DNA from: Bryobacterales bacterium
Lineage (GTDB): Bacteria; Acidobacteriota; Terriglobia; Bryobacterales; Bryobacteraceae
Length of the DNA: 64,000 nt
Assembly: GCA_003167255.1 (NCBI GenBank)
Contig: PMTR01000124.1
Span: forward strand, 1-64,000
Direction of reading: 5' to 3'
The position numbers and the translations under genes are program-made. Below the pieces are notes generated by a model, which saw only the letters and a program-made list of their open reading frames with translations, was not told where the DNA came from and made no database searches. This document shows, in pieces, positions 1,430-29,964 of the stretch; position 1 is the first letter of the stretch, and every line of letters begins with the position of its first letter.

Positions 1430-1906
1430 ATGCAAGGAAAGCCAAAAGTAATCGCCGAACTCAACGCCGCCTTGAAAGAAGAATTGACCGCCATCAACCA
1501 GTACTTCCTCCACGCCGAGATGTGCGAGAACTGGAAGTACGACAAGCTCGGCAGCTTCATCAAGAAGCAGTCCATCGACGAGATGAAACACGCCGAAGCC
1601 CTCATCGAACGCATCCTCTTTCTCGATGGTGCGCCGAATTTGACCGAGCTGTTGCACGTCACTGTCGGCAGCAATGTGAAGGAGCAGCTTGAGAGCGATC
1701 TGAAACTGGAAATCGGCGCTGTCGCCACGTACAACAAATCGATCCAGATCGCGCGGGACGAGGGTGACAACGCGTCGCGCGAGCTCTTCGAGCGCCTGCT
1801 GAAAGATGAAGAGAGCCACGTCGATTGGTTGGAGGCCCAGCTCCACCAGATCAAGGAAATCGGTTACGAGCGGTATTTGAGCCAGCAGATTCGCGAAGAA
1901 AAGTAA
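1430..1906 (+). CDS. bfr: Bacterioferritin
   Basis: 158 residues, the usual length of bacterioferritin, which forms a 24-subunit cytosolic shell that oxidises and stores iron. Starting at ATG 1430 (not the TTG at 1391) puts the known residues at their standard numbers: ferroxidase ligands Glu18, Tyr25, Glu51 and His54, plus the haem ligand Met52 in DEMKHAE. The later ligand motif DEESHVDWLEAQL is also present. The haem-binding Met supports a true Bfr over a haem-free ferritin or DPS protein. The gene sits between a dead TonB gene end and a dead copy of the 5' end of the downstream peroxidase gene, so it was probably moved with a duplicated segment. Peroxide and iron neighbours fit its role. 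Confidence 0.93.
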   Translation: MQGKPKVIAELNAALKEELTAINQYFLHAEMCENWKYDKLGSFIKKQSIDEMKHAEALIERILFLDGAPNLTELLHVTVGSNVKEQLESDLKLEIGAVATYNKSIQIARDEGDNASRELFERLLKDEESHVDWLEAQLHQIKEIGYERYLSQQIREEK

Positions 1907-2214: not shown

Positions 2215-2247
2215 TTGACATTTTATATCGGCTGCAATATTGTTGCA
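2215..2247 (+). promoter_or_regulatory. Promoter and operator of the Fur/PerR-like gene
   Basis: TTGACA (2215-2220), an exact 17-bp spacer and TATTGT (2238-2243) lie just before ATG 2251, implying a nearly leaderless mRNA. The inverted repeat TGCAA-TATTG-TTGCA (2233-2247) covers the -10 box and is a good candidate for self-repression. The same arrangement with another 5-nt centre occurs in the TonB promoter at 7951-7965. Confidence 0.65.
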
Positions 2248-2250
2248 ATT

Positions 2251-2805
2251 ATGGCCCCGGGAGATCGTTCCCATCTCAAGCTGGAGGATCTCGCACAGAT
2301 CTGTCGCGAACACGCTCTGCCACTCACCGTTCAACGGCGAGTGGTTCTGGAGGCCCTGTCCCTTCGTACGGATCATCCGACCGCCGATCAGATCTTTGAC
2401 GACGTCCGGACACGAATGCCAGAAATTTCCCGGACTACGGTGTATCGCGTCCTCGAAACGTTCGTTCGGATCGCGGTTGCCCGAAAAGTGTGTCACCCGG
2501 GCGCGGCAACCCGCTATGAGGTAAAGACGCATCGTCATCACCATCTCGTCTGCCTCAACTGCGAAAAAATGCTGGACTTGGAAGACCCATCCCTGGATGG
2601 TTTACCACTTCCCAGTGAGAGTTCCGGTTTTCAGATTGGCGACTATTCCATCCAGTTTCGAGGCTTTTGCTCAGACTGTGCTCGAAAACTGTCCACCCGG
2701 CGGACACGGCCAGCCTCGTCTGGTACGCCTGCGCCGAGAGCGAAGGCAAAAGCGGATTCATCCAGAGGAAGGAGAAGATCACGACGAGGTGGTCCGCAAG
2801 AGTGA
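2251..2805 (+). CDS. Fur-family metalloregulator, PerR-like
   Basis: 184 residues from ATG 2251; the track start at TTG 2215 is rejected because that TTG is part of the -35 box. The N-terminal winged helix contains TVQRRVVLEAL and ISRTTVYRVLETF, the Fur-family recognition region. The dimerisation half has THRHHHLVCLNC and GFCSDC, giving the two CxxC pairs of the structural zinc site and the His-rich regulatory site. A Lys/Arg-rich tail of about 40 residues (after CARKLS) is longer than usual and may add non-specific DNA binding. Position next to bfr and a peroxidase homologue suggests peroxide or iron sensing, hence PerR-like; Fur proper cannot be excluded. It probably controls its own gene and neighbours through TGCAA/TTGCA sites. 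Confidence 0.88.
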   Translation: MAPGDRSHLKLEDLAQICREHALPLTVQRRVVLEALSLRTDHPTADQIFDDVRTRMPEISRTTVYRVLETFVRIAVARKVCHPGAATRYEVKTHRHHHLVCLNCEKMLDLEDPSLDGLPLPSESSGFQIGDYSIQFRGFCSDCARKLSTRRTRPASSGTPAPRAKAKADSSRGRRRSRRGGPQE

Positions 2806-2897
2806 GATGCCCGCTGCGGGATTTCACGCAGGAGATTGAGTGTATTCCCGTGGCAGGCGCTGGCCCTCGATTGGTCATATCGCGCTTTTCTCTGTCT

Positions 2898-2913
2898 CTG
2901 CAACAGATTGCAG
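2898..2913 (+). promoter_or_regulatory. Inverted repeat upstream of the peroxidase homologue
   Basis: CTGCAA-CAGA-TTGCAG is a perfect inverted repeat about 115 bp before the peroxidase start. It resembles the TGCAA-N5-TTGCA sites of the regulator and TonB promoters but has a 4-nt centre. The motif AACAGATTGC is repeated at 2902 and 2929. No convincing -10/-35 pair is seen nearby. Confidence 0.4.
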
Positions 2914-3027
2914 CGCGGTACGTGGGTAACAGATTGCGGCGCCGCATGAACGTGGGCACGCCATAGGGGTGCATACGCTACGATGACGTCGTAGAAGTGT
3001 CTGCTGTAGGCAAAAGGAAGGAGAACT

Positions 3028-4428
3028 ATGAGATTTCGAGCGAATTGGGGCAGGGCTGCGGTGCTTGTGGCGGGCCTCGTTTTGGCCCTTGGCACACTTC
3101 TCGCGCAGGAGGCCGGGAAGAAATCATCCAGCTACTCGCCGGTTGTCATTCAGGAGGACTTCGCCACCGTCATGTCTCGCATGAGAGCGGCGAAACCCGC
3201 CATCATGCAGCGTCAGAAGGCGCTGCTGGAGGAGCGCTACGACCTAAGCGACCGCCCCGCCAGAGGCGTAACCATGTCTCGCGGCAAAGCGGTCCAAGAG
3301 GGCGTGCGCGTAAAGCTTCGAGGGGGCATGACCTGGGAGAGACTCGCGCAGATGCGCCCTGAAGAGATCCGCGACCGAGACGCGTTTCCCCTCGGCTTCA
3401 TGCCGTTGCCGCATCCGAATCATCCGGAAGGCGGAATGCTGTTCCCGAAGTACCAGATTGATGAGATCAAGAAGCAGGAAGGCCGCGACCTGACCCGCTT
3501 CGATCTCGATTTCAATCTGCCCGACCACATCATGCCGGAGTATCCGCCGGCCATCTATCTGACCACGCGACCCGATCTGGGCGATGTCTCCCAGGGCAAA
3601 GTGGTGACGATTGACAACTACTACGAGTTGTTCAACGGGATTTTGAATCCTAAGCAACTCGAGGGGTTGCGCTTGCTGGTAACGCCGTTCCCGCAGCAGC
3701 AATTCAATCAGACCGAGGATCGCCGTAGCGAACGCCCGCACCGCGGCGTCACCTGCTTCGATTGCCACGTAAATGGGCACACCAACGGCGCCACGCATCT
3801 GGTCGGGGACATTCGCCCGCAGGAGTTCCGGCATCGGATCGAAACCCCCTCGCTGCGCGGCGTTAACATTCAGCGCCTGTTCGGTTCTCAACGAGCGTTG
3901 AAGACCGTCGAAGACTTCACGGAGTTTGAGCAGCGTGCGGCGTACTTCGATGGGGACCCGGTCATTGCCATGAAGAAAGGAGTAAATATCTTGGATCGGG
4001 GAAGCCAGGTCCACTTTATGGCCGAGGTCGAAGAACTGCTGGATTTTCCGCCGGCGCCCAAGCTTGGCATTGACGGCATGTTGAATCCGAGAAGCGCTTC
4101 TCAAGCAGAGCTGCGCGGGCAAACGCTGTTTTTTGGCAAAGCAAAGTGCGGGTCGTGTCATCCAGCGCCGTACTATACCGACAACACGATGCACAATTTG
4201 CAAACGGAGCGTTTTTACAAGCCACGGATGATCAATGGCATGATGGCCACCGCCGAGGGCCCAATCAAGACGTTCCCGTTGCGGGGAATCAAGGAGTCGC
4301 CTCCCTACATGCACGACGGGCGGTTGTTGACGCTCGAAGACACGGTTGAATTCTTTAACTTGATCTCCGAGGTTGGATTGACAGCGCAGGAGAAAGCAGA
4401 TCTTGTCGCGTTCCTGCGAACCTTGTAG
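3028..4428 (+). CDS. Di-haem cytochrome c peroxidase / MauG family protein
   Basis: 466 residues with a strong Shine-Dalgarno AAGGAAGGAG before the ATG. A signal peptide (GLVLALGTLLAQ, about residues 1-27) sends it to the periplasm. Two CxxCH haem sites, CFDCH near residue 243 and CGSCH near 374, plus the C-terminal stretch FPLRGIKESPPYMHDG followed by TLEDTVEFFN, mark the bacterial di-haem peroxidase superfamily. Classical members reduce H2O2 with electrons from small cytochromes; MauG-type members oxidise other substrates. It is longer than the roughly 330-residue peroxidases because of about 200 extra N-terminal residues of unknown role. The neighbouring PerR-like regulator favours peroxide defence. 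Part of its 5' end is duplicated at 1932-2026. Confidence 0.85.
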   Translation: MRFRANWGRAAVLVAGLVLALGTLLAQEAGKKSSSYSPVVIQEDFATVMSRMRAAKPAIMQRQKALLEERYDLSDRPARGVTMSRGKAVQEGVRVKLRGGMTWERLAQMRPEEIRDRDAFPLGFMPLPHPNHPEGGMLFPKYQIDEIKKQEGRDLTRFDLDFNLPDHIMPEYPPAIYLTTRPDLGDVSQGKVVTIDNYYELFNGILNPKQLEGLRLLVTPFPQQQFNQTEDRRSERPHRGVTCFDCHVNGHTNGATHLVGDIRPQEFRHRIETPSLRGVNIQRLFGSQRALKTVEDFTEFEQRAAYFDGDPVIAMKKGVNILDRGSQVHFMAEVEELLDFPPAPKLGIDGMLNPRSASQAELRGQTLFFGKAKCGSCHPAPYYTDNTMHNLQTERFYKPRMINGMMATAEGPIKTFPLRGIKESPPYMHDGRLLTLEDTVEFFNLISEVGLTAQEKADLVAFLRTL

Positions 4429-4448
4429 GAGAGCAGCGAGAATGACCG

Positions 4449-4910
4449 CGAATTACTACTGGCTCTAAAAGGCGAAGCGCAGGGCCACTTGCACCAGGCG
4501 GGGCGCGGCGGCGGCCACCACCTGACCGAAGCTGGAGCTGGTGATGTTACCGTTGACCGCCGCCGCACCATAGAACTGGGCGTGGTTAAAGACGTTGAAG
4601 GCCTCGACGCGCAACTCCAGCCAGCGGCGTTCGCGGAATTTCCAATCCTTGTGGAGGGCCAGATCGAAATTGGCCATGCCTGGTCCGTAGAAGAACCGCC
4701 GAGCGGCGGTCCCGACACTGCCTAGCGAAGGGAGACTGAACAGGGCCGTGTTGAAGGCCAGCTTGCCGTTGCGGGGGTTGGTGTTCAGCATGAGGGGACC
4801 GGGGCTGACGTCCGGCGTGTCGACGCCATTGTTATTGATGCCGTTCGGAATGGTGCCCAAGAGCGATGTGTCGTTGTTGTTGAATAGCGTGACGGGCAGG
4901 CCGGTGCTGT
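4449..4910 (-). repeat. Right arm of a roughly 455-bp inverted repeat
   Basis: This is the 3' end of the TonB receptor gene plus 16 bp downstream. It matches 932-1381 in inverted orientation. The two arms enclose bfr, the peroxidase-gene fragment, the regulator and the peroxidase gene, so recombination between them could invert this 3-kb block. Confidence 0.8.
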
Positions 4911-7899
4911 AGCGCGCGATGCCTGACAGGCTCAACCCTAACGGCATTCTCCAGTTCCAGCTCGCCACGAAGTTGTGCCTCATGTCGAAGGCTGAGAGCG
5001 CCTTACTCAGTGTAGAATTGATGGGGTTGACGGGATCGGACAGGCTGGAGGACTGGTCCAGGGACTTGCCATAGGTGTAACCGGCGAGCAACTCCAGGGA
5101 GCCGGTGGTGTGGCGCAGGGTGGCCTCGAGCGAGTTGTAGTTCGAGTTGCCGATGGTTTTTTGGTACGTGACGGCCGCAAATTGGGGAGAAAAGGCGGTC
5201 CTCGTTCCATCGACGATGGATCCGGAGGCGGTAACATAGGTTCCGCTTTCGCCGAAGGGGCCACACGTGGCGGTGCCTGGCGCTACGTCCTGGGGCTGGC
5301 TCAAACTGAGGCACAGCGCGGGATTACCGGGGTTGGCGGAGATGAGCACCAGGAGGTGATGAGCCTGCGAGCCGGAGTAGCGGATGGCGGCCACGGTTCC
5401 GCGGGCCACTTCGCGCTCCACCGACAGCATATAGCTTTCGCTGTAAGGGGTGAGGTTTTGATGGAAGAAGGAAGGGACGCCGGTGATGGGCAGGTATTGC
5501 GACCAATCGACGGAAGTATTGGGATTTTGAACGGAGGCGCCATCGGCAGGGATGGGCTCCGGGAAGCGCTGGCCGATGTTTGAGCCATCGGAGGCGGTGA
5601 TGAAGGGATTCGGGAACAGCGGGGGCGCGACGCTGGTGTAATCGTAGCCATAGGGCGGATTGGCGCTCATGATGCCCGCCGAAAGGCCTTCAAACGCGGT
5701 GTAGAAGAGGCCATAGCCGGCGCGCACAACGGTGTTGCCGAGGGAGTAAGCGAGGCCGACTCTAGGAGCGAAGTTGGTGTAGCGGGCGGGCGCGAGGGTG
5801 GCGGGGATTCCTGGGTCGCCGGGAAAGACCAGGCCGGCCGGCGCACCGGGATAGACGAGCGACTGCTGGCCGGGCACGAGCGTCTGCAACTGGTTGTATT
5901 TTTCGCGCCAAGGCGGCAGGAGGTCCCAGCGCAATCCGTAGTCGAGGGTGAGGTTGGGCCGCACGTGCCAACTGTCCTGCGCGAACAGGCCCACGTAGCG
6001 GTTGCGGAGATAAAACGGGCGCGAGTCGCCTTGCGAGTAGCTGCTGGGGACGCCGAGCAGGAAATCGGCAAAATCGGAACCGGTGTCGGTGCCCTGGAAG
6101 AGAAATGACCCGTTGTAAATGGCATCGGGATTGATATTGACCTGGTCCAGGTGCACACTGGCTCCGAACTTGAACAGATGGCGGCCCGCGACTTTGGAGA
6201 ACTGGTCGGACCATTGATAGGTGTTGTTGGCCTGAGTGACACCGGTGGTATCGACGCCGATGGTGAAGTCGTTGAACGACACGTTTTCTATTCCCTCGAT
6301 TTGCGGCGCTAGCGGAACGATGCCGGTGAAGCCCTGGGAGGCCAGAGTGGGACCGACGCCGCCGGCGGGCTGCCCGATATGGTTGGCGTCGCGAAGATAT
6401 CCCAGGCGAAATTCGTTGACGGCGGTCGAGTTGAAGGTGCTGGTCAAGGCGACGGTGGCCATCTGCGCGCGGCCGGCCGAAGTGGCGTTAAAGCCCGGCC
6501 CGTTGGCGCCACCTTGTCCGGTGGGATAGGGATCGTTGAGCCAATAATCGTCGGCGAAATAGTAAGCGGAGAATGCGCCCCAGCGGGTATTCGCATCCAT
6601 GCGTAGAGCGGCCTTGTCGTCGCGCAAGATTTGATCGTCAGCGGAAGTTTCGAAGCTGCCGGGGCCAGCGTTGGGCTGCGGAATGTATGAGAGCAGGGCC
6701 TTGGCGGGGGCAGACCAGGCGCGTTGCGGAATGACGGCCTGGGGGAAAACGCAGTCGCTCGCATTGGAGCAGCCGTTGAAATAATAGCGTTCACCCGGAT
6801 TCACGCCGTATCCAAGTTTCTGAGACAGCAAGTTGGCCCAGTAAGAGCCGCCGACAGTTCCGGTGAGCGTGCCGGCGATATCGGAGAAGTCACCAGCGCG
6901 GTTGGCTGCGGAAGGCACCGAGATGAGGCCAGTATCGATGCCTTGGCGGGTGCGGGTACCCTGGTAATCGGCGAAGAAGAAGACCTTATCTTTGCGAACG
7001 GGGCCACCGATGGTGGCGCCAAATTGATTGCGCTGGAACGCTGCGCGCTGCGAGGCGAGGAAGTTGCGGGCGTCGAGCGAGGTGTTGCGGAGGAACTCGA
7101 AGAGGCTACCGGTAAAATCGTTGGCACCGGACTTGGTGGAAACCAGCACCTGGCCGCCGCTGAAGTTGCCATACTGCGCGTCAAAGCTGGCGGTGAGCAC
7201 GCGCATCTCGGAGATGGCATCCAAGTTCGGCACGATGGCCGCGCCCATATTGAAATCCTCCTGCCCGGCGCTGCCGTTGATGTAGAAGCCGTTGCTGGTC
7301 TCGCGCTGTCCGTTGACGGACAGGTTGCCGGGATTGAGGTCGCCTGAAGGACGAGTGTTGGTACATCCCGACATGACGACGGCATTCGGCTGCCTTGAGC
7401 TGAGCGGCGCGACACCCGGAGCCAGCGCCAGCAGATCCGTATAGCTGCGGCTGTTGAGCGGCACTGCAGAGGCTTTGGCGTTGGTGAGGGGTTCGCCTAC
7501 CTGCATATCACTTGTATCGATCTGGGAAGCCGACGCGTTCACTTCGACGGCCTCGCTGTGGGCGGCGAGGGCGAACACGACGTCGAGACGGGTTGAGGCG
7601 CCAGCGGTAACGGAGACCGCGCCACGATGGTAGGGCTGGAAGCCAGCGGCGGCGGCTTCGATTTCGTAATCCCCGGCGGGCAGGCCGGCGATCGTATAGC
7701 GGCCCTGGTCATCCGTCACTGTGCGCCACAGGGTCGCGACACCCGCGCGGCGTGCTACAATTTCGACGCCCGACACCGCCGCGCCGGCGGGATCGACCAC
7801 GGCGCCCTCGACATTTCCATCCGTTCCAGCCGCCCACGCCAGCCCAACCGCCAGCGCGAGGAGCGGCACACACTGAGAATTGCGGGTCAGTTTCATCAT
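4465..7899 (-). CDS. TonB-dependent receptor, Oar-like
   Basis: About 1144 residues from ATG 7899 (MMKLTRNSQ); the track start 237 bp upstream lies in the promoter region. A signal peptide (PLLALAVGLAWAAG) is followed by a carboxypeptidase-regulatory beta-sandwich (GAVVDPAGAAVSGVEI ... DDQGRYTIAGLPAGDYEIEA), a plug (VNGQRETSNGFYINGS, then YGNFSGGQVLVSTKSG) and a long barrel ending in aromatic VQVALRFAF. Such receptors are abundant in Acidobacteria and import large ligands or act in surface assembly; the substrate is not visible. Position beside bfr, FTR1 and a Fur-like gene, and an operator-like inverted repeat in its promoter, suggest iron control. Its last 430 bp are duplicated in inverse at 932-1381. 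Confidence 0.88.
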   Translation of the reverse strand: MMKLTRNSQCVPLLALAVGLAWAAGTDGNVEGAVVDPAGAAVSGVEIVARRAGVATLWRTVTDDQGRYTIAGLPAGDYEIEAAAAGFQPYHRGAVSVTAGASTRLDVVFALAAHSEAVEVNASASQIDTSDMQVGEPLTNAKASAVPLNSRSYTDLLALAPGVAPLSSRQPNAVVMSGCTNTRPSGDLNPGNLSVNGQRETSNGFYINGSAGQEDFNMGAAIVPNLDAISEMRVLTASFDAQYGNFSGGQVLVSTKSGANDFTGSLFEFLRNTSLDARNFLASQRAAFQRNQFGATIGGPVRKDKVFFFADYQGTRTRQGIDTGLISVPSAANRAGDFSDIAGTLTGTVGGSYWANLLSQKLGYGVNPGERYYFNGCSNASDCVFPQAVIPQRAWSAPAKALLSYIPQPNAGPGSFETSADDQILRDDKAALRMDANTRWGAFSAYYFADDYWLNDPYPTGQGGANGPGFNATSAGRAQMATVALTSTFNSTAVNEFRLGYLRDANHIGQPAGGVGPTLASQGFTGIVPLAPQIEGIENVSFNDFTIGVDTTGVTQANNTYQWSDQFSKVAGRHLFKFGASVHLDQVNINPDAIYNGSFLFQGTDTGSDFADFLLGVPSSYSQGDSRPFYLRNRYVGLFAQDSWHVRPNLTLDYGLRWDLLPPWREKYNQLQTLVPGQQSLVYPGAPAGLVFPGDPGIPATLAPARYTNFAPRVGLAYSLGNTVVRAGYGLFYTAFEGLSAGIMSANPPYGYDYTSVAPPLFPNPFITASDGSNIGQRFPEPIPADGASVQNPNTSVDWSQYLPITGVPSFFHQNLTPYSESYMLSVEREVARGTVAAIRYSGSQAHHLLVLISANPGNPALCLSLSQPQDVAPGTATCGPFGESGTYVTASGSIVDGTRTAFSPQFAAVTYQKTIGNSNYNSLEATLRHTTGSLELLAGYTYGKSLDQSSSLSDPVNPINSTLSKALSAFDMRHNFVASWNWRMPLGLSLSGIARYSTGLPVTLFNNNDTSLLGTIPNGINNNGVDTPDVSPGPLMLNTNPRNGKLAFNTALFSLPSLGSVGTAARRFFYGPGMANFDLALHKDWKFRERRWLELRVEAFNVFNHAQFYGAAAVNGNITSSSFGQVVAAAAPRLVQVALRFAF

Positions 7900-7943
7900 T
7901 GGTCTCGCTTTAGCTATATTAAGAACTGCTTTACTTGAACTTG

Positions 7944-7973
7944 AGTATACTGCAACTGAATTGCAAGAAGCAA
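7944..7973 (-). promoter_or_regulatory. Predicted TonB receptor promoter with embedded operator
   Basis: On the minus strand TTGCTT (7973-7968), an 18-bp spacer and TATACT (7949-7944) form a plausible promoter 45 bp before the start codon. The spacer contains TGCAA-CTGAA-TTGCA (7951-7965), the same inverted repeat and spacing as in the Fur/PerR-like gene promoter. Confidence 0.5.
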
Positions 7974-8232
7974 GAAGTGACCCACGTGCCGATGGCGTGG
8001 CGGTGCCCCAAGCCACCACGGCGGGTGGGGCAGGACTACCCCAACACCGGGGCTTCGACGTCCAACACGAGGTGATAAGGAGGCACTGAGGGGCAGTTGG
8101 TGCATCCTGGGGCGTTGTGGCGATCAGTTGCGGCACCGCTTCCGCTCTGTTGGGAATACCGATTTACCATGGTCGCATCTTGGCTCGTCGAGAGCCTGCC
8201 AAACCCTTCTGAGAGGTCATAGCCGCGCCTTG
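7974..8232. other. Intergenic, no gene seen
   Basis: Between the divergent TonB and FTR1 promoters. It holds GC-rich imperfect inverted repeats (GCCCCAAG...GGTGGGGC near 8010-8030) but no coding frame with family resemblance. Confidence 0.5.
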
Positions 8233-8261
8233 TTGACAGTCAGTTGCATCTGAGATGTAAT
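8233..8261 (+). promoter_or_regulatory. Predicted FTR1 promoter
   Basis: TTGACA (8233-8238), 17 bp, TGTAAT (8256-8261), then GTG at 8270. The near-palindrome TTGCAT-CTGAG-ATGTAA (8244-8260, one mismatch) overlaps the -10 box and may be a weaker member of the same operator family. The mRNA would be almost leaderless. Confidence 0.55.
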
Positions 8262-8269
8262 GGTTTGGC

Positions 8270-9289
8270 GTGAGCAGAGCGGAATCACATCGGCATCCCG
8301 GTCGAATCGCCGCGTCGAATTCTCCCTCGCGGTTGGCTTTGCTCGCCTCTCTGGCGGTTGGCGGTCTGTTGGTCGCCGCCGTCATGATCTGGCAGGCACT
8401 GAGCCAGGCCGGCAACCCCGATCCTCTCGCGCCGCACTTGGGTCTCAGCGCAGCAACGATTGACATTGGCGTGCTCGTGTTTCGCGAAGGCTTGGAATGT
8501 ATTCTGGTGCTCGCAGCCATCACAGCGACCATGGGCGCCTCCAACCATGACTATCGGCGCCCAGTGGCCGTTGGTGCCGGGGCAGCGTTCGTAGCTACCC
8601 TAGTCACATGGTGGGTTGCCATTGGCCTGATCGATGATCTGACGCAGAAGGTTTCCGCCCTGCATCTCCAGGCGGCCACGGGTCTCCTTGCAATTCTGGT
8701 GCTATTGCTGGTGATGAACTGGTTCTTCCACAAAGTTTACTGGACCGGATGGATCTCGGCACATACCAAAAAGAAACAAGGCCTTCTTGACCGCGCTAAG
8801 TCCACTGAGGTCTCCAAAGCGGATTTGTGGTGGGGCTTTGTCTTGCTCGGCTTTACGTCACTGTACCGCGAGGGCTTTGAAGTCGTCCTGTTCTTGCAGA
8901 GCTACCGCCTGAAGCGTGGCGGCCTGATCGTGCTTTATGGGGTGTTACTGGGCCTGCTGCTTTCGGGTATCGTTGCTGTCCTGACGTTCCTTGCTCATCG
9001 CCGCTTGCCGTATCGGCGAATGTTGGTCCTGACGGGTGTCATGCTTGGCGCAGTCTTGCTGGTGATGGTGGGCGAGCAGGCCCAAGAGATGCAATTGGCC
9101 CACTGGCTCCCGACGACCCCCATGCCGCGACTGGCAGCGGTGATTCCGCCGTGGATGGGGCTGTGGTTTTCGGTCTTTCCTACAGTCGAAACGCTGGTCG
9201 CCCAGGCAGTTGCCGGCGTGTTGGTCGTCGGTTCATATTTTGCTGCGAGTTTGGGTTTGCGCCGGGCCGGCCATCCTCACCGAAGCTGA
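8270..9289 (+). CDS. FTR1-family high-affinity iron permease
   Basis: 339 residues starting with GTG. The two signature REGxE motifs, FREGLECILVLAAI near residue 72 and YREGFEVVLFLQ near 203, are the iron-binding motifs of the Ftr1/EfeU transporters, embedded in about seven hydrophobic helices. Family members move Fe(III) across the inner membrane, in bacteria often with periplasmic EfeO and EfeB partners; neither is present here. Yeast Ftr1 works with an iron oxidase; the neighbouring di-haem peroxidase homologue is a speculative functional substitute. It is separated from the other iron genes by the divergent TonB receptor gene. Confidence 0.88.
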   Translation: MSRAESHRHPGRIAASNSPSRLALLASLAVGGLLVAAVMIWQALSQAGNPDPLAPHLGLSAATIDIGVLVFREGLECILVLAAITATMGASNHDYRRPVAVGAGAAFVATLVTWWVAIGLIDDLTQKVSALHLQAATGLLAILVLLLVMNWFFHKVYWTGWISAHTKKKQGLLDRAKSTEVSKADLWWGFVLLGFTSLYREGFEVVLFLQSYRLKRGGLIVLYGVLLGLLLSGIVAVLTFLAHRRLPYRRMLVLTGVMLGAVLLVMVGEQAQEMQLAHWLPTTPMPRLAAVIPPWMGLWFSVFPTVETLVAQAVAGVLVVGSYFAASLGLRRAGHPHRS

Positions 9290-9407
9290 AGTTGGCAAAA
9301 GACAGAAATGTGATCCAAGTGGATGCCCAGAAGGATAATAAGCCGTCGGGATCGAAAGCCTGATGAGAGGTTTTATCACATTCGACGCCACGAGGCTGAA
9401 GCATCCA

Positions 9408-9550
9408 CTGTAGATGATTTTGTAGCTGTCCAAAGCCTCCGCCTTCAACAGGGCTCAACAGGCTTCAACACGAGGACCGTATCTGCTTGAAACGTAAGTA
9501 GTTGAGAATAAGGCACTTTCCGGGAGTACCGGAAACTGCCTTGGGCACAG
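9408..9550 (+). repeat. Dispersed repeat, copy 2 (A only)
   Basis: CTGTAGATGATTTTGTAGCTG through ACTGCCTTGGGCACAG, with the tandem CAACAG units. After the core the sequence GGAGGTCGCATCTTTAGAATC weakly recalls a tRNA variable loop and T-arm but cannot fold as one. No B part follows. It separates the iron module from the two-component genes. Confidence 0.8.
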
Positions 9551-29547: not shown

Positions 29548-29964
29548 GTACGAACTGGAAGGCGATCCCGAGAACGACGCGGGTGTGTAGACTGCGGCAG
29601 GGTTGACCTGACGGACATCAAGCGGCGGAAAGCCATGTAGATGATTTTGTAGCTGCCCGGTTCCTCCGGGCTCAACAGGATTCAACAAGCTTCAATAGGT
29701 TGCCCGTATCTTATTGAAACGTAAATACTTGAAAACATGGCATTTTCGGAAAAGGCCGGAAACTGCCTTGGGCTCAGTGGATCTCCGGTCAATACCTTAT
29801 GCGCTTTTATCTTTGTTTTCAATAAGTTGCAAAAACGGGCTGTTGCAGCTTGTGGAACCGGGAGGATGCTTTAGCTACATTTTTGACTACAGTCGCCTGC
29901 CAGACCGCTGGAAGGCCCGTCAATAGGCGGTTTCAGCATGGGCGACCCCCTGCAAGTACGGCAG
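29548..29964 (+). repeat. Dispersed repeat, copy 4 (pre-A, A, B)
   Basis: Pre-A segment (29,548-29,633) shared with copy 1, A (29,634-29,778) from ATGTAGATGATTTTGTAGCTG to ACTGCCTTGGGCTCA, and B to 29,964 ending in CCTGCAAGTACGGCAGG. The A/B junction is identical to copy 3. No 45-nt hairpin follows. From 29,965 to 30,119 nothing is recognised. Confidence 0.85.

Follow-up and report, generated by a model that had tools for sequence, protein, structure and literature searches.

Two kinds of candidate Fur-family operator at a peroxide and iron locus of Bryobacterales

The closest described relatives of the operators considered here belong to Fur-family regulators of several bacterial groups. The native feoAB1 operator of Fur from the Alphaproteobacterium Magnetospirillum gryphiswaldense (MgFur) is TTAATCGCAACTCATTCGCAATTGC (crystal sequence TTGCAAATCATTTGCAA), and its footprinted core CGCAACTCATTCGCA is the consensus of the sites that we call class 2 below; Arg57 of MgFur forms two hydrogen bonds with the G that its operators conserve (PMC4506495). 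For the PerR of Geobacter (perR-rbr-roo), a box AaTGCAATAAAATACCAAT overlying the -10 box has been predicted (PMC545781). The Streptomyces Nur box, tTGCaa-N5-ttGCAA, matches our sites in consensus and spacing when compared by operator consensus only, but Nur is nickel-responsive and linked to sodF and nik genes (PMC3919588), and no sodF or nik genes are present here. The Desulfovibrio Zur motif ATGCAACnnnGTTGCAT is the same dyad as well, although it is a predicted zinc operator upstream of znuABC-zur (PMC545781). In contrast, the classical Fur box GATAATGATNATCATTATC is built of GATAAT hexamers.

We analysed a window of 64,000 nucleotides from a Bryobacterales (Acidobacteriota) genome, in which genes for bacterioferritin, a PerR-like regulator, a MauG-like di-heme protein, a TonB-dependent receptor and an FTR1-family permease lie close together (Table 1). 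A sequence-only reading of this DNA had described one inverted repeat before four of these genes, as a possibly distinct operator type for a shared regulator. All four strings that it named are present in the window, and they are of the TGCAA/TTGCA type, unlike GATAAT- and TTATAAT-type boxes. At the regulator, the receptor and FTR1, dyads do lie over or between promoter boxes, and orthologous promoters keep them; only the site before the MauG-like (peroxidase) gene lacks such conservation. Three of the four promoters thus hold up, and they carry two classes of putative operator, both of known kinds and newly placed in Acidobacteriota. The reading that we prefer, at a probability of roughly 0.78, is that two Fur-family repressors would act here, a PerR-like protein at TGCAATATTGTTGCA and an iron-responsive Fur at the TonB receptor and FTR1, and that chance probably explains the dyad before the MauG-like gene. 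Sequences, conservation, gene neighbourhoods and residues were established in the analysis.

Table 1 Features of the locus (window coordinates)
Feature	Position	Strand	Evidence
Bacterioferritin	1430..1906	+	TIGR00754 1.1e-55; no dyad in own promoter
-35 box TTGACA, PerR-like gene	2215..2220	+	Sequence; same spacing in orthologs
Candidate class 1 operator TGCAATATTGTTGCA, covers -10 box TATTGT (2238-2243)	2233..2247	+	Ortholog conservation; matrix rank 1
PerR-like Fur-family regulator (R61, D104, CxxC...CxxC)	2251..2805	+	Pfam FUR 1.2e-22; 2FE3 match; residues
CTGCAACAGATTGCAG, N4 dyad, probably chance	2898..2913	+	No counterpart at homologs; low matrix scores
MauG-like di-heme protein	3028..4428	+	Homologs directly downstream of same regulator clade in L049, L064, L073 (73-79% identity)
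TonB-dependent receptor, CarboxypepD_reg domain	4465..7899	-	Pfam OMP_b-brl_4 and CarboxypepD_reg
Candidate class 2 operator TGCAATTCAGTTGCA (TGCAACTGAATTGCA) of TonB receptor	7951..7965	-	Weak -35 (7968-7973) on one side, -10 TATACT (7944-7949) on the other; matrix rank 1
Candidate class 2 operator TGACAGTCAGTTGCA, overlaps FTR1 -35 box TTGACA (8233-8238)	8234..8248	+	TGACAnTCAGTTGCATCTG in G449 and G312; matrix rank 2
FTR1 -10 box TGTAAT	8256..8261	+	Sequence; TGTAAT also in G312, G449
FTR1/EfeU-family iron permease	8270..9289	+	Pfam FTR1 3.7e-14

The best PDB match of the window's regulator is Bacillus subtilis PerR (2FE3, E 1.9e-21). N61/D104 are named as hallmarks of PerR and R61/E104 as those of Fur in PMC8638851, which cites earlier work. 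The source genome encodes three Fur-family proteins: the window's regulator (C68), which is R61/D104; a paralog beside katG (C25), which is N61/D104 and hence of the PerR type; and a third (C113), which is R61/E104 and of the Fur type. Asp104, the residue tied to H2O2 sensitivity by the rule in PMC8638851, is present in C68 and in every member of the R61/D104 (RD) clade. Position 61, however, holds Arg in C68 and its clade rather than the Asn associated with reading of a PerR box, and the operator is TG...CA, not TT...AA. Among the PerR regulatory ligands H37, D85, H91 and H93, C68 keeps the three histidines and has Glu in place of the PerR Asp at position 85, and the four cysteines of the structural zinc site CxxC...CxxC are all kept. 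Orthologs of C68 occur in Bryobacterales, other Acidobacteriota, Geobacter/Desulfuromonadales and Planctomycetota, and they form one group in the tree, the base of which is weakly supported.

In the regulator promoter the -35 and -10 boxes are 17 nt apart, and the ATG follows 7 nt downstream of the -10 box, so that the transcript is probably leaderless; the same holds for orthologs. The promoters of L050, L051, L053, L054/L080 and L055 (= G003) have TTGACA and, after about 17 nt, TGCAATAnnnTTGCA, whose dyad covers the -10 box. One base of the dyad is different in L052 and L110, the dyad is degenerate in L056 and in L049 (the nearest relative of the window regulator), parts only are found in L057, and no clear class 1 dyad is seen in the promoters of L063 and L073. 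The Bryobacterales flanks hold no further TGCAA-N5-TTGCA except one single-mismatch match each in L057 and L080. Genes of peroxide defence are linked to the regulator repeatedly: catalase follows it in L050, L051, L053 and L055 and KatG in L056 and L057, bfr is adjacent in L061-L063 and rubrerythrin in L077 and L079, and in Geobacter-type loci the neighbours are a flavodiiron protein and desulfoferrodoxin. This linkage is accompanied by a conserved dyad in the regulator's own promoter.

Class 1 resembles the Geobacter PerR system in its regulator clade, its left half TGCAATA, its overlap with the -10 box and its peroxide-defence neighbours. In Bryobacterales, by contrast, the right half is TTGCA, which makes the dyad symmetric, and the regulator has katA, katG, bfr or a MauG-like gene beside it. 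Bound to TGCAATATTGTTGCA across the -10 box, the PerR-like protein (2251-2802) would repress transcription of its own gene and of the operon that follows. With Asp at PerR position 104 in the metal site, peroxide would oxidize the protein and thereby release the promoter.

Both class 2 sites fit TGCAAnTSAnTTGCA. Among orthologs of the TonB receptor, the five most similar (60-70% identity; G449, G254, G129, G220 and G368) all have the dyad, in three copies in G129, as TGCAA-CTCAG-TTGCA-like sequences or TGACA-TTCAG-TTGCA; among more distant orthologs it is found in L187 and L192 only. For FTR1, the sequence-only reading was right that a dyad precedes the gene, but the dyad that it named, TTGCAT-CTGAG-ATGTAA, is out of the conserved register. 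G449 and G312 have FTR1 orthologs that share TGACAnTCAGTTGCATCTG with the window, and the conserved dyad is therefore TGACA-GTCAG-TTGCA at 8234-8248, ten bases away; TGACAnTCAGTTGCATCTG is missing from the other nine FTR1 promoters compared. The GTG start of FTR1 at 8270, 7-8 nt after the -10 box, indicates that this transcript is probably leaderless too.

Score matrices for the two classes were built without the source-genome sites and trained mostly on orthologous promoters, so the ranks restate conservation rather than constituting independent discovery. The class 1 matrix gives its top score in the window to 2233-2247 (21.95, against 19.4 for the best of 60 shuffles). With the class 2 matrix the top score is that of 7951 (24.77, against 20.3 for the best shuffle), followed in second place by 8234 at 19.09, which is below the best shuffle. 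The MauG-like site and the rejected FTR1 register score poorly.

Class 2 sites extend beyond this locus. Of ten genomes, most have more matches to TGCAACTCAGTTGCA than to its reversed control when up to two mismatches are allowed (9/6 versus 0/0 in the source genome and 11/10 versus 1/0 in G449); the signal is weak in G326. Every site of this type was read in G220 and G368, where many lie in coding sequence. Orthologous promoters with the dyad in both genomes are those of the TonB receptor, a PepSY gene, a second receptor, a Dps-like ferritin and feoAB, together with paired sites 51 bp apart at a Fiu-like receptor, YbiX dioxygenase and PepSY group; the source genome also has one class 2 site at feoAB. 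At feoA the sites share bases with the start codon and the codons for MQLS; conservation of the protein could explain them, and they carry less weight. The 7-1-7 dyad (T/C)GCAACT-n-ATT(T/C)GCA of the MgFur feoAB1 kind stands before iron-uptake genes. Class 2 shares with MgFur its iron genes and an Arg on the DNA-reading helix, which contacts the conserved G in MgFur. The footprinted operator comes from an Alphaproteobacterium, whereas these putative operators lie in an acidobacterial host and at other receptor families.

A Fur of the C113 type is encoded in all ten genomes (68-100% identity), and its own promoter has no dyad. G129 and G349 encode a second Fur, 46-47% identical to C113 and R61/E104 by inspection, whose own promoter carries three dyads in each genome (TGCAACTCAGTTGCA, TGCGAATCATTCGCA and TGCGACTAAGTCGCA in G129; TGCAACCCAGTTGCT, TGCGACTGCGTCGCA and TGCGACCAAGTCGCA in G349), all fitting TGCRA-N5-TYGCA; in G349 this fur gene is followed after 2.6 kb, in the same orientation, by FTR1. 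A Fur is thus tied to class 2 by location, and we infer that the C113 Fur binds class 2 sites. Iron-loaded Fur, most likely the C113 paralog, would repress the TonB receptor (7951) and FTR1 (8234) through TGCAAnTSAnTTGCA and release both promoters when iron is scarce. Binding, repression, metal and peroxide responses, the identity of the binding Fur and leaderless starts are, for both classes, predictions from sequence.

A separate observation concerns L230 (1609-1842; G220 C1), which encodes a 78-residue protein corresponding to the C-terminal half of Fur only (PF01475 positions 76-120). This protein is 53% identical to the second Fur of G129, and its gene is preceded by a TGCAACTCATTTGCA dyad and followed by a TonB receptor. 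It may be what is left of a fur gene, or else a dimerization domain that stands alone.

Under our preferred reading, two Fur-family repressors would read one half-site, TGC(A/G)A. We propose that the half-site is common because both regulators carry Arg at the DNA-reading position 61, where the Arg of MgFur touches the conserved G of TGC. The distribution of residues and operators fits this. Five N61 proteins (L002, L023 and L031, plus L116 and L132 elsewhere in the tree) have TT...AA dyads, whereas R61 proteins of the RD clade with recognizable dyads have TG...CA boxes. In the tree, Asn61 has two independent origins.

The N4 dyad before the MauG-like gene is the one claimed site that does not survive comparison. 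Nothing comparable lies upstream of 18 other MauG-like homologs (one with 156 bp upstream only), and it is also missing upstream of three operonic homologs; the dyad is probably due to chance. The gene itself is probably part of the regulator's operon, because L049, L064 and L073 have a homolog directly downstream of a regulator of the same clade. The MauG-like proteins of these loci and of the window are 73-79% identical between Acidobacteriota and Planctomycetota, beside the same regulator, and movement of the pair by horizontal transfer is possible.

Several repeats surround these genes. A 455-nt inverted repeat (87%; 930-1384 and 4444-4898) is accompanied by a C-terminal remnant of the same TonB receptor (872-1363) upstream of bfr, and a 93-nt direct repeat (91%; 1930-2022 and 3087-3179) corresponds to a remnant of the N-terminal part of the MauG-like gene upstream of the PerR-like gene. 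A 146-nt repeat at 355-500, 9404-9549 and 29636-29776 flanks the block from bfr to FTR1; three of its four genome copies are on the window's contig.

Could the dyads simply be chance matches in A+T-rich promoter stretches? In the window, TGCAA-N5-TTGCA occurs without mismatch at 2233-2247 and again at 7951-7965, and 2899-2912 has the dyad with an N4 spacer. The 64 kb hold no fourth exact match with a spacer of N4-N6, against an expectation of 0.15, and none of 100 shuffles reaches three; with two mismatches permitted, the window count is at shuffle level (19 versus 23). Pattern searches of the whole source genome give five exact N5 matches versus four in the reversed control. Three of the five matches (in C90, C152 and C167) lie inside coding sequence and were rejected as operators. 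The bare dyad is thus no evidence, and the weight rests on position and conservation. Conservation in orthologous promoters refutes chance for 2233, 7951 and 8234, making it a very improbable explanation of the whole, although it holds for the MauG-like site. A dyad upstream of the C25 paralog, TGCAACACCTTTACA, was likewise treated as chance; a better one there, next to katG, is TTAGATATAATCTAA.

On the single-regulator claim, the PerR-like protein would occupy every site and so co-ordinate iron uptake with peroxide defence. This claim draws on the identical half-site, on the position of everything within 6 kb and on R61, which suits both classes. In addition, the class 1 matrix places the TonB-receptor site second, so that the PerR-like protein may cross-bind there. 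We nevertheless consider it unlikely. Class 2 sites are kept in G220, G368, G254, G312 and G326, which have no member of the C68 clade, and they mark general iron genes, whereas class 1 sites elsewhere occur almost only at the regulator's own promoter, with a dyad that differs in centre and neighbours. Since the class 2 dyad stands in relatives that lack the PerR-like gene, an iron Fur is its likely reader. Somewhat less improbable, though still doubtful, is competition of the two repressors for shared sites, at which iron and peroxide signals would meet in genomes with both proteins (G000 and G129). R61 in both, the identical half-sites and the matrix cross-scores agree with competition; the centres differ, however, position 7 being A in class 1 but T in class 2, and the regulator site ranks only 17th with the iron matrix.

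A claim of a new operator type is not borne out, as class 2 is the footprinted Magnetospirillum Fur operator (PMC4506495) and the left half of class 1 is that of the predicted Geobacter PerR box (PMC545781). A limited literature search found no Fur box described for Bryobacterales, and the present comparison is a first outline of the candidate iron and peroxide operators of this acidobacterial order. Less probably, a family of peroxide sensors with D104 and R61 may share the half-site of the iron Fur and compete with it at iron-uptake promoters, in which case peroxide would directly gate iron import in Bryobacterales. The relation between residue 61 and operator position 2 offers a testable natural data set in which one residue would set the second base of the operator.
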